33,286 nucleotides of DNA from Candidatus Omnitrophota bacterium (lineage in GTDB: Bacteria > Omnitrophota > Gorgyraeia > Gygaellales > Profunditerraquicolaceae), in NCBI GenBank assembly GCA_026387265.1, contig JAPLLZ010000027.1:1-33286 (forward strand). Direction: 5' to 3'. The translations under genes and the position numbers were made by a program. Shown piece by piece: positions 1 to 32,535 of the stretch. The number at the start of each line of letters is the position of its first letter. The stretch's first letter is position 1. Under the pieces are notes generated by a model that saw only the letters and a list, made by a program, of their open reading frames with translations, was not told the DNA's origin and did no database searches.

Positions 1-1674
1 CAACCAGGCTTCCATGCTGGAGCATAAATGGAAATACGGCAGTTTACTAAAAGGATAGATTTTGTAGCGGCGTTCTTTATTTTTTATCCGGTCATATGTT
101 TCTTCGCAGGTTCTTTTTAAGTGTTGGGTAGATTTTGAGATGCCTGTAGGCATGCGTTGATTTTTACGTGGCTCAAAAACAACCGATGCAGCCACTACAC
201 CTAAACTGGCTTCATCCAATTGCTCTAGGATATTATCGGCGTATAATTCTGCCAGGACCAGTTCATAACCGTAAATAGTTTTAGCAAATTTCCCTTTGTC
301 GGTAAGTTTCCCGTCATAAATATATCCTAAATCTTTAAGCAGCCTTAGTTTTGCATCTAGAAGATTTAAAGCTTGTTTTTGTTCATTTTTACGGGATTGA
401 TAATAATGCAGGGAGAGGGGGTAGATTTTAAATAAATCATCCTGGTATTTTTCATAAAGATTAAGGATTGTAGCGTAGGAGGTATTTAACTGGCTTTTTA
501 CTTCCTCAGGGTTTCCAAAGATAATCCGGCGCACTTCCTCAAAATTTATTCTTTGCGGGTTAATGCGCGTGTAAACAAAACCCTCTTTGTCGATGCCGCG
601 GCGGCCGGCACGGCCAGCCATCTGAAAGAAGTCGCGGGTTTTTAAATTGCGCACATAGGTGCCATAAAATTTACGCAGGCCGTCGAACATTACCGAACGG
701 CTGGGCATATTTATGCCTAGGGCAAAAGTTTCAGTGGTAAAAATTACTTTTAGCAGGCGGCTGGTAAAAAGCCGTTCGATTACTTCTTTAAGCGTGGGTA
801 GCATTCCGGCATGATGGTAAGCAATGCCACGCTGCACTAATGGATAAAGTAACTGCGCGGATTGTTCATTCTTTAAATTAAACCTTTCCAGTAAATCGTC
901 ATACATTTGAGTAATCGCACGGGTTTCTTTAGCATCGAGGAATTTGAATCCGTATAAATCAAACGCCAACTCTTCGGCGCGCTTACGAGAAAAAACAAAA
1001 TAGATCGCTGGTAAGCCTTCTTTGTTTTGCACATGGCTGATTAATGATTGTAAGCGATTAGGTTTATTGGAACGCAGGCGCTTAAGCTGGTCAAAATTAT
1101 CAACTACTTCATTTGCGCATTGAAAGCTAAAATGTAGCGGTACTGGCCGGGTATCTTCAATAACTACTTTTACGCTTTTGTTATGAATAGATTCAATCCA
1201 GCTGGCGAATTGTTTAATATTGGGAATGGTTGCGGATAAACCCAGAAGATTCATATGTTTAGGCAGGAAAATCAATGATTCTTCCCAAACTGTACCACGT
1301 TCAGGGTTATCAATGTAATGAATTAAAACAAAAATAATCCAGGAGTATTTATCCAGACTGGCTGGCTCATCCAGGATTTTATTGCGGAAAATTTCAGTAG
1401 TCATGATTAAGACCGGAGCCTGTGGATTAATGGAAACATCTCCGGTAAGAATTCCGATATTATCCTGAAATTGGTTTTTAAAGTCCCTGAATTTTTGGTT
1501 AGAGAGGGCTTTAATCGGGGCGGTGTAGATGACCCCTAGATTATTGCGGATTGCTCCCTCGATAATATATTCGGCAATGGCAGTTTTTCCGGCTCCGGTG
1601 GGAGCCGAAACGATTACTGAGTGCCCGGCATTTATATAATCAATGGCTTCTTGTTGGAAACGGTCGTATATCAT
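1..1674 (-). CDS. Ski2/Mtr4-like DExH-box superfamily 2 helicase (3' end outside window)
   Basis: Reverse strand read from ATG at 1674: MIYDRFQQEAIDYINAGHSVIVSAPTGAGKTAIAEYIIEGAIRNNLGVIYTAPIKALSNQKFRDF...; motif I APTGAGKT, motif III LGLSATIPN, motif VI QMAGRAGRRGID. Open to window edge (558 codons). Not in the ORF track. Confidence 0.9.
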   Translation of the reverse strand, partial: MIYDRFQQEAIDYINAGHSVIVSAPTGAGKTAIAEYIIEGAIRNNLGVIYTAPIKALSNQKFRDFKNQFQDNIGILTGDVSINPQAPVLIMTTEIFRNKILDEPASLDKYSWIIFVLIHYIDNPERGTVWEESLIFLPKHMNLLGLSATIPNIKQFASWIESIHNKSVKVVIEDTRPVPLHFSFQCANEVVDNFDQLKRLRSNKPNRLQSLISHVQNKEGLPAIYFVFSRKRAEELAFDLYGFKFLDAKETRAITQMYDDLLERFNLKNEQSAQLLYPLVQRGIAYHHAGMLPTLKEVIERLFTSRLLKVIFTTETFALGINMPSRSVMFDGLRKFYGTYVRNLKTRDFFQMAGRAGRRGIDKEGFVYTRINPQRINFEEVRRIIFGNPEEVKSQLNTSYATILNLYEKYQDDLFKIYPLSLHYYQSRKNEQKQALNLLDAKLRLLKDLGYIYDGKLTDKGKFAKTIYGYELVLAELYADNILEQLDEASLGVVAASVVFEPRKNQRMPTGISKSTQHLKRTCEETYDRIKNKERRYKIYPFSKLPYFHLCSSMEAWL

Positions 1675-1680
1675 AAATGA

Positions 1681-1807
1681 GCGGACAACTTACGGAGTGC
1701 GTAGCAGGACGTAAGTTGTAGTTTACGGCGTAGCCGTAAGCGCCCGCGAATTTATCCTGGGCCTACGAGAAAATCCTAGAGGATTTTTGAGTGATCAGGC
1801 GCAGGAT
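1681..1807 (-). other. Structured intergenic element, copy A
   Basis: + strand coordinates: gcgg(1681-1684)/ccgc(1744-1747) closing stem; hairpin acaacttacg(1685-1694)/cgtaagttgt(1710-1719); hairpin gtttacggc(1721-1729)/gccgtaagc(1733-1741); interrupted hairpin atcctgggcct(1754-1764)/aggcgcaggat(1797-1807) enclosing aaaatcct(1770-1777)/aggatttt(1780-1787). Same plan as 32384-32516. Confidence 0.75.
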
Positions 1808-1849
1808 CTTGGTTATTATTAATAATGATTGTATTATAGAGCAAAATCA

Positions 1850-2449: not shown

Positions 2450-3010
2450 ATGAAGAAGATTGTAATTCTGTTGTTTATTGGCTTACTAGCTTTGACGGGT
2501 TATCTTTTTGGCGGGGATCTTAATCCGCGTTTTCATTCTCAGGAAGAAGTAAAGTGGAAGTTTCCTTTTGGCAAAAGCTATGATTATACGGATATTTTGG
2601 TTACCCGGGTGGTTGATGGAGATACTTTGGTTCTGGAAAATAATGAGCGGGTGCGTTTGATCGGTATTGATACTCCGGAAATGCATGAATCTGAGAAACT
2701 TACCCGGGATGCTCAGCGCTCCGGAGAGGAGACAAAAATTATTAAGCAATTAGGAAAGCGTTCTTATGAGTTTACCCGGAAACTTGTTGAGGGTAAGCGT
2801 GTAAGGCTGGAATTTGATGTGGAAAGATTTGATAAATATAAAAGAATTCTGGCTTATGTTTATTTGCCCGATGGAACATTTTTAAATGCTTTGATTGTTG
2901 AACAGGGGTATGCTTCGCTAATGACTTATCCGCCGAATGTAAAATATGCGGATTTATTTTCGAGATTGTACCGGGAAGCCAGGGAAAATAGAAGAGGATT
3001 ATGGGAGTAA
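2450..3010 (+). CDS. Thermonuclease family (SNase-like) protein with N-terminal membrane/signal segment
   Basis: VTRVVDGDTLVLENNERVRLIGIDTPE ... RLEFDVERFDKYKRILAYVYLPDGTFLNALIVEQGYA ... ENRRGLWE. Confidence 0.9.
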   Translation: MKKIVILLFIGLLALTGYLFGGDLNPRFHSQEEVKWKFPFGKSYDYTDILVTRVVDGDTLVLENNERVRLIGIDTPEMHESEKLTRDAQRSGEETKIIKQLGKRSYEFTRKLVEGKRVRLEFDVERFDKYKRILAYVYLPDGTFLNALIVEQGYASLMTYPPNVKYADLFSRLYREARENRRGLWE

Positions 3011-3012
3011 AC

Positions 3013-3143
3013 TCTAAGCCCGAAATCCTAAACTCTAAACAAACTCAAAATTAAAAATTCAAAACTTCGATATTAATTAAAATTTGAGTTTTGGATTTAG
3101 GATTTGTTTAGGATTTAGAGTTTAGTGTTTAGAATTTTAGTAG
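3013..3143. repeat. AT-rich inverted-repeat element (cccgaaatcctaaactctaaac ... ggatttaggatttgtttaggatttagagtttagtgtttag)
   Basis: Left part complements the right part, and the right part closely resembles the sequence upstream of greA (about 11915-11960). Confidence 0.6.
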
Positions 3144-31667: not shown

Positions 31668-32376
31668 AACCAAAGGCTTAGCTAAATCTTATGATGGCCG
31701 CCAGGTAGTTAAGGGCGTGGATATCACGGTTAAGCGCGGAGAGATTGTTGGCCTCCTGGGGCCTAATGGTGCGGGCAAAACCACTACTTTTTATATGATT
31801 GTTGGTATTGTGCCTCCGAATAAGGGGACGATTGTTTTTGATAATCATGATATTACCAATATGGCGATTCATGAACGGGCGCGTTTTGGCATAGGTTACT
31901 TAGCCCAGGAGCCTTCAATATTCCGTAAGCTGACCGTTGAAGATAATATTAATGCAATCCTGGAAACTCTTTCTTTGGGCAGGGCAGAGAGAAAACGCAG
32001 GTTGGCTGCTTTATTAGAAGAATTAAATATCGCGCATTTAGCCAAAAATAAAGCCTATACTTTAAGCGGCGGAGAAAGAAGGCGCTTGGAGATTACCCGG
32101 GCTTTGGTTACTAATCCTTCTTTTATACTCTTGGATGAACCTTTCAGCGGAATTGATCCGATCGTGGTTAATGAAGCTCAGGAAATTATTAAAGAATTAA
32201 AAGCCAAAGGCTTGGGAATTTTATTGACTGATCATAATGTACGTGAAACCCTGTCTATTACTGACCGGGCGTATTTAATTTCAGAGGGATCGATTCTTAT
32301 TTCGGGTACGGCGCATGATTTGATTAATCACCCGCAAGCGCGTCAGGTTTATTTGGGTGAGAAGTTTAGGATGTAA
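31654..32376 (+). CDS. lptB: LPS export ABC transporter ATP-binding protein
   Basis: [20 protein letters not shown] ... [34 protein letters not shown]. Confidence 0.95.
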
Positions 32377-32383
32377 AAGGTAT

Positions 32384-32516
32384 ATTCCGTCTCAGGAGCT
32401 ACACCGAAATTTTCTAAAATTTCGGTGTATTCGACGGAATTAATTCGCAGACGTGGATTCGTTTAATAGAAACCACTACAACTTATGTCGCACTTTGTGC
32501 TCCATAAGTTGTCTGC
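32384..32516 (+). other. Structured intergenic element, copy B
   Basis: attccgtc 32384-32391/gacggaat 32433-32440 enclosing acaccgaaatttt 32401-32413/aaaatttcggtgt 32416-32428; gcag 32447-32450/ctgc 32513-32516 enclosing gtggattc 32453-32460/gaaaccac 32469-32476 and acaacttatg 32478-32487/cataagttgt 32503-32512. Confidence 0.78.
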
Positions 32517-32535
32517 TCATTAAGAAAGGGATCAA

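Follow-up and report, generated by a model that had tools for sequence, protein, structure and literature searches.

The window analysed here, a stretch of 33,286 nucleotides from a Candidatus Omnitrophota genome, holds two distant intergenic elements with a common fold, one just upstream of a helicase gene (copy A) and one just upstream of tig (copy B). The question raised by this locus is what such elements are: leader RNAs, structured mobile repeats, or sites of recombination or processing, as listed in the initial annotation. We conclude, with a probability of about 0.7, that A and B, which have one arm each and are non-autonomous, belong to a mobile family of palindromic DNA that extends across the Omnitrophota, with a GIY-YIG nuclease as its probable mover.

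Both elements (1681-1807 on the minus strand and 32384-32516 on the plus strand) were confirmed. Against dinucleotide shuffles, the fold z-scores of the two strands are -6.1 and -6.9 for copy A, and -8.6 and -9.9 for copy B, and none of 200 shuffles folded as well as the copies. The order of stems, the linkers and the compensatory changes reported in the initial annotation were correct as judged from sequence and fold. The apical loops, given there as 2 nt long, are better read as TCTA tetraloops. The stems listed are present as described, but an outer stem, TWAAT/ATTWA, had been missed; it lies beyond gcag/ctgc across a TC/TC mismatch and covaries strongly (at one pair U-A 33, A-U 26 and C-G 3 times). 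What had been taken for a single architecture is really two modules, an arm that defines the family (stems 5-9 of that annotation plus the outer stem) and an exchangeable 5' hairpin module. The parts of the two copies are as follows.

1674..1754, minus strand: arm of copy A (match of the arm covariance model R1 at G000:C33:1671-1756, minus strand, E 7.5e-20; fold; sequence).
1750-1754 and 1674-1678, numbered on the plus strand: outer stem TAAAT/ATTTA of copy A (fold, sequence). The further parts of this arm are the TC/TC mismatch, the stem gcgg/ccgc, a side hairpin, and the acaacttacg/cgtaagttgt hairpin with its internal loop.
1755..1807, minus strand: 5' hairpin module of copy A, with outer stem tcctg/cagga, asymmetric loop, and apical hairpin with a TCTA loop (sequence, fold).
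32385..32439, plus strand: 5' hairpin module of copy B, with outer stem TTCCGTC/GACGGAA, asymmetric loop, and apical TCTA-loop hairpin (sequence, fold).
32440..32523, plus strand: arm of copy B (R1 match at C33:32438-32526, plus strand, E 2.4e-20; fold).
32440-32444 and 32519-32523, plus strand: outer stem of copy B, TTAAT and ATTAA.
32445-32446 and 32517-32518, plus strand: TC/TC mismatch of copy B, followed by the stem GCAG/CTGC.
32453-32476, plus strand: side hairpin of copy B.
32478-32512, plus strand: hairpin of copy B with a TC..TC internal loop.

The outermost base of copy A is the A of the helicase ATG, and the layout of its 5' module is common to the modules of other copies in the same genome.

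A DNA search retrieved about nine copies from this genome, and the covariance model R1 of the arm, built on 8 sequences with 22 pairs, retrieved 29 arms at E<=5e-4, so that the resemblance of A and B is not due to chance. With R1, arms were found in 30 of 39 near relatives at 0 to 35 copies each, very unevenly even inside one genus. In an even sample of the phylum Omnitrophota, 121 of 195 genomes and 97 of 149 genera carry arms. Numbers per genome range from 0 to at least 115, and are highest in G217 (at least 115) and G202 (at least 93). When 85,488 species genomes were scanned for the pattern, almost all matching records were from Omnitrophota. The 94 kb that surround 30 Y1 transposase genes, used as a negative control, contained no arm at E<=0.1. 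The initial annotation did not recognise the elements as a known RNA family, and this was borne out in that no Rfam match reached the gathering score in the window; at a lax threshold, the elements gave sub-threshold chance matches and nothing credible.

The arm is a palindrome of ~60-90 nt with an almost invariant TC/TC mismatch and the consensus 5'-(T)TWAAT-TC-[GCNC ... one or two hairpins ... GNGC]-TC-ATTWA(A)-3'. In short elements, two head-to-head arms stand round a centre of 13-186 nt, or a single arm is joined to a hairpin module that forms the opposite end. The full-length form, of about 380-470 nt, has two arms and an inner inverted repeat, with a single gene filling the centre. Short palindromes such as CCTGCCTACCGGCAGGTAGG are nested in the terminal loops of arms at four loci (L075, L077, L175 and L283).

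Selection or a mechanism acting on structure, as suggested when the two copies were first compared, is supported by the larger alignment. Across 68 aligned arms, 97.1% of stem cells pair (79.1% when shuffled), double changes occur at 19 of 22 pairs, and the covariation score is 0.421 compared with 0.143 for shuffles, none of 500 of which reached it. While the surrounding pairs change, the TC/TC mismatch is kept in 58 of 68, 113 of 117 and 124 of 127 arms, the second of these sets and part of the third being biased as they were chosen by a search pattern that contains TC/TC.

The pairing can be read as that of RNA or of DNA. Since RNA stems accept G-U on their own strand, they are expected to show an excess of G-T over A-C. 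In three alignments with 312 arm matches (about 5,970 stem cells) we counted 5802 Watson-Crick pairs, 52 G-T and 58 A-C, whereas tRNAs from the same loci gave 1064, 50 and 17 among 1,200 cells. Because G-T and A-C are balanced and both rare, unlike the RNA expectation and the tRNA control, the palindrome appears to be kept at the DNA level. The covariance model favours G-U, so any bias of the search works against this result. These counts point to a structure preserved as DNA, whether through an enzyme reading DNA hairpins or through replication that corrects palindromes.

We then compared the insertion sites across congeners. The insertions are bounded as follows.

1676..1831, minus strand: insertion of copy A, 156 bp between a -10-like TATAAT and the helicase ATG.
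32374..32376, plus strand: stop codon of lptB (TAA), which forms the left-hand of the two TAA copies at the insertion edges.
32377..32523, plus strand: insertion of copy B, lacking at the lptB-tig junction (ATGTAA|GAAAGGG) of six congeners.

The site of copy A is empty in five congeners (G022, G041, G017, G006 and G013), in which its flanks lie 4-6 nt apart. That of copy B is empty in G041, G020, G021, G042, G016 and G015, with 11-12 nt between the lptB TAA and the tig ATG. Four more copies have empty orthologous sites in relatives. Other genomes have different occupants between lptB and tig. The source genome and G022 carry forward elements with related arms and different 5' modules; G007, G009, G011 and G018 carry reverse-orientation elements or remnants, the end of which supplies the lptB stop codon; and G006, G017, G012, G040 and G014 carry unrelated inserts. 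Since the same sites are empty in congeners, A and B are insertions that are gained and lost rather than conserved leaders. Mobility, as read from these genome comparisons, is well supported, and of the functions first considered it is the structured mobile repeat that finds support.

A conserved cis-acting leader RNA or riboswitch, upstream of the helicase, tig, infA, rpmI and other genes, would explain the strong covariation and the many arms placed 0-19 nt before a start codon. Single arms face a gene start in 63 cases and a gene end in 13, but random positions in the same loci are start-biased under the same test (704 starts and 134 ends), so the orientation bias is weak evidence from which no functional conclusion follows. 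The shared orientation upstream of an ATG, noted for the two copies at the outset, holds for A and B and is the commonest arrangement; many others are turned the opposite way, towards a gene end. Reversed copies occur at stop codons, others lie in ribosomal protein operons and beside tRNA genes, and the genes downstream of arms share no common function. At tig, the orthologous arm of G022 has gathered unpaired, uncorrected changes, and selection at this gene therefore does not maintain the pairing. The leader reading is largely refuted by close relatives that have the same genes without the element; G-T is no commoner than A-C in the stems, and we consider this reading very improbable.

The edges of the insertions suggest a target. 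At lptB-tig the empty site reads ATG-TAA-GAAAGG and the filled site ATG-TAA-[...]CAT-TAA-GAAAGG, so that one TAA has become a TAA at both edges; the ymdB, rpmI and yqeY-type sites are compatible with this. Changes in the internal TWAAT are matched by changes in the outer ATTWA, one example being the form TCAAT/ATTGA. The best explanation of these sequences would be insertion at TAA-like sites, for the most part after a stop codon and ahead of a Shine-Dalgarno sequence.

Direct repeats of 12-34 nt were found at about 8 of 131 arms. Most start right after the outer stem and several are formed by tRNA ends. If the elements were MITEs of a DDE transposase, the arms would be terminal inverted repeats, these direct repeats would be IS1634-like target duplications, and the GIY-YIG gene described below would be cargo. 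At several arms the repeats do begin exactly after the outer stem, and none of 2,620 control pairs reached a score of 16. However, a two-arm insertion with a known empty orthologue duplicates TAA at most and has no long direct repeats, no DDE gene was seen between arms, and all six ORF-sized centres carry GIY-YIG only. We regard a DDE origin as quite improbable. A general target duplication seems unlikely, the few clear direct repeats being mostly at tRNA ends or nested. Arms lie beside tRNA genes at L065, L088, L113, L116 and L182, where direct repeats of 12-28 nt consist of the tRNA end and adjoining bases; four of these five begin about 17 nt inside the tRNA.

Neighbouring arms no more than 700 nt apart are arranged head to head in 57 cases, tail to tail in 6 and in tandem in 10. 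The head-to-head arms flank a centre, usually a hairpin, and so form a two-arm element. Arm ends abut genes, with starts at 0-5 or 10-19 nt. Stop codons at arm ends are mostly within the outer stem (22 of 23), so that the element often supplies the stop codon. At L295 8429-8497 (G033:C25) an arm overlaps the end of rplE, apparently altering the C-terminus of the protein. Two stretches between more distant head-to-head arms were considered as possible carriers of a transposase and rejected: one of 1.4 kb in G033 holds ribosomal protein genes and one of 2.6 kb (L179) ordinary genes.

The candidate enzyme came from the centres of intermediate length. Each of the six centres of 257-309 nt contains a gene for a GIY-YIG nuclease of 76-85 aa, and no gene was detected in centres of 13-186 nt. 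Two longer pairs (centres of 333 and 423 nt) had no GIY-YIG and look like adjacent short elements; the 423-nt one (L175 702-1276) had been tried as a coding centre. The element proteins match PF01541 with E 2e-7 to 2e-17, and the alignment columns Y, G, T, R, H, R and E are invariant among them. In about 1.88 Mb of loci, overlaps included, there are ten distinct GIY-YIG frames, 6 of which have an arm on each side, no more than a few tens of bases away. The set of elements comprises six from three genomes, two with broken genes: four genes look intact, the gene on G217 C8 is frameshifted, and that of L218 lacks a start. From codon comparisons, these genes are under purifying selection (C34 vs L413 dN 0.41, dS 1.7; overall dN 0.27-0.41, with dS 1.7 or saturated).

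The source genome has an intact element of this kind.

Contig C34, 9-388: GIY-YIG element with arms at 9-71 (minus strand) and 329-388 (plus strand) and a 76-aa gene.

The start and stop of its gene abut the inner repeat CCCCACACCCAGCA/TGCTGGGTGTGGGG. Two short elements of the same genome, L075 (C64) and L077 (C14), share the CCCCACACCCAG/CTGGGTGTGGGG repeat of the C34 element, one side being degenerate in one of them. Both carry CTGGGTGTGGGG with the right arm, and the last ~70 nt are almost identical to the C34 element, as would be those of internal-deletion derivatives of a C34-type element. L075 and L077 thus have ends in common with an autonomous element, as MITEs do; copies A and B are linked to it by arm homology only. 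Similarly, short elements of G202 and G217 share CCCAGCACTAATTTTA or CCCCACACCAATT centres with the GIY-YIG elements of G217 and L218. In the part of G202 examined (at least 93 arms) there was no GIY-YIG element, no full-length partner was identified for the single-arm type of A and B, and the protein had no match among plasmids. We infer that the GIY-YIG nuclease is probably the mover of the elements.

A different enzyme was suggested by the form of the arms. In a new REP/BIME family, palindromes would be moved in trans by a resident Y1 HUH transposase of the IS200/RAYT type and the GIY-YIG gene would be a passenger. The head-to-head pairs resemble BIMEs, the mismatched hairpins and the pairing of internal sequence with the border occur also in REP and IS608 (PMC8266576), and Y1 genes are present in 35 of 39 relatives. 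However, the numbers of Y1 genes and arms are uncorrelated (Spearman -0.06, p 0.72): G025 has 31 copies and 0 Y1, while G006, G016 and G021 have 2-6 Y1 and 0 copies. None of 30 Y1 loci carries an arm, and the aligned arms have no GTAG or CGTC tag, their borders being TWAAT/ATTWA with TC/TC. The RAYT/IS200-like transposase raised in the initial annotation is therefore present in these genomes without association with the arms, and we think it an unlikely mover.

Copying by a reverse transcriptase, as for a SINE-like retroelement, would fit the variable length of the direct repeats. The stems lack G-U tolerance, though, and PF00078 is absent from the source genome and from five relatives with 22-35 copies (75-94% complete), which leaves this explanation barely credible. 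Integron attC sites were also considered and rejected; the core-site pattern does not fit on reading.

A GIY-YIG mechanism could operate as follows. Full-length copies would make a nuclease that recognises the arms once they are extruded, whether as cruciforms or as single-stranded hairpins. Where one strand has TC/TC, the other has tandem G-A pairs; because such pairs are stable in both DNA and RNA, the mismatch could act as a label by which the enzyme tells the strands apart. The enzyme would cut near the outer stem and so insert both full-length and short copies. We know of no GIY-YIG transposon, and the chemistry of insertion proposed here is a guess. Most surviving insertions would be those placed after a stop codon and before the following ribosome-binding site, and effects on host genes, e.g., on mRNA stability or translation, would be putative side effects. 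Near the cut, the internal TWAAT may form base pairs with a TAA-like target. In IS608 it is guide sequences inside the element that pair with the cleavage site, and they are able to retarget it (PMC8266576); the resemblance of the outer-stem pairing to these guides is an analogy only.

Several known systems resemble parts of this family. Free-standing GIY-YIG homing endonuclease genes (e.g., Seg of phage T4) are selfish DNA with a GIY-YIG nuclease as the only gene. These enter an allelic site by repair, without structured arms or miniature derivatives, whereas the Omnitrophota elements reach many unrelated sites. Penelope-like elements use a GIY-YIG nuclease for mobility; they are eukaryotic and have a reverse transcriptase, unlike the elements described here. 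Small GIY-YIG proteins of the UPF0213 type (PDB 1ywl) are also single-domain (a weak match, E 0.0045), but their genes are chromosomal and lack arms; the source genome has one on C64 (L300).

The closest likeness is to REP/BIME/REPIN systems with RAYT (TnpA-REP), relatives of IS200/IS605, which share small intergenic palindromes, a required stem mismatch, head-to-head dimers, patchy copy number, and a coding partner outnumbered by non-autonomous copies (PMC8266576, PMC3733652). In REP and IS608, as in the arms, sequence beside the hairpin pairs with the border (PMC8266576, PMC3733652). REPs are 20-40 nt long with GTAG, whereas the arms are 60-90 nt long with two TC/TC mismatches, and the REP partner is a Y1 HUH enzyme (RAYT), whereas here it is a GIY-YIG protein inside the element, without Y1 association. 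CGTC-tagged palindromic repeats form dimers without a dedicated transposase in the literature (PMC3733652). The arms are also palindrome dimers, but lack the CGTC tag and have a candidate enzyme encoded between them.

A search of 5.39 million open-access papers, covering Omnitrophota repeats, REP relatives, and GIY-YIG in palindromic or miniature elements, turned up no description of this family. Small mobile palindromes as such are familiar; to our knowledge, no small palindromic element is known whose sole gene is a stand-alone GIY-YIG nuclease. We see about even odds that the family is a new class of transposable element, with an autonomous unit of about 380-470 bp, a single-domain GIY-YIG as the sole protein acting on the arms, a TAA-like target chosen by internal base pairing, and REPIN-like non-autonomous copies throughout the phylum. 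We know of no mover for palindromic repeats such as CGTC REPs, and of no role for the small GIY-YIG genes common in uncultured bacteria. The Omnitrophota family joins the two in a concrete, testable pair of enzyme and substrate. If the proposal is right, GIY-YIG chemistry would be added to the short list of DNA-moving enzymes and these would be among the smallest autonomous mobile elements. The family also gives cause for caution: very strong covariation upstream of genes arose here from mobile DNA hairpins and not from RNA, and it was the count of G-T against A-C that exposed the source.

Other repeats were seen nearby. At 3008-3137 the window has a second, unrelated palindromic repeat, AAACTCTAAACAAACTC...GAGTTTAGTGTTTAGA, of about 130 bp, between two genes; the congener G041 has >20 copies of it, some just upstream of start codons. 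At lptB-tig of G040, G012 and G014 (L294, L289 and L284) another repeat, CCCCGCACCTTCTT..AAGAAGGTGCGGGG, supplies with its edge the GTG start of tig. In L284 (G014:C10:70000-71600) an Xre/MbcA/ParS-type antitoxin gene (PF09722) also lies between lptB and tig, followed by a gene that looks like a RES toxin. A repeat of the GTCATCCTGAGC..GAATGACAAA type is inserted at tig and yqeY-type sites (L285 and L286 of G006 and G017, and L314).
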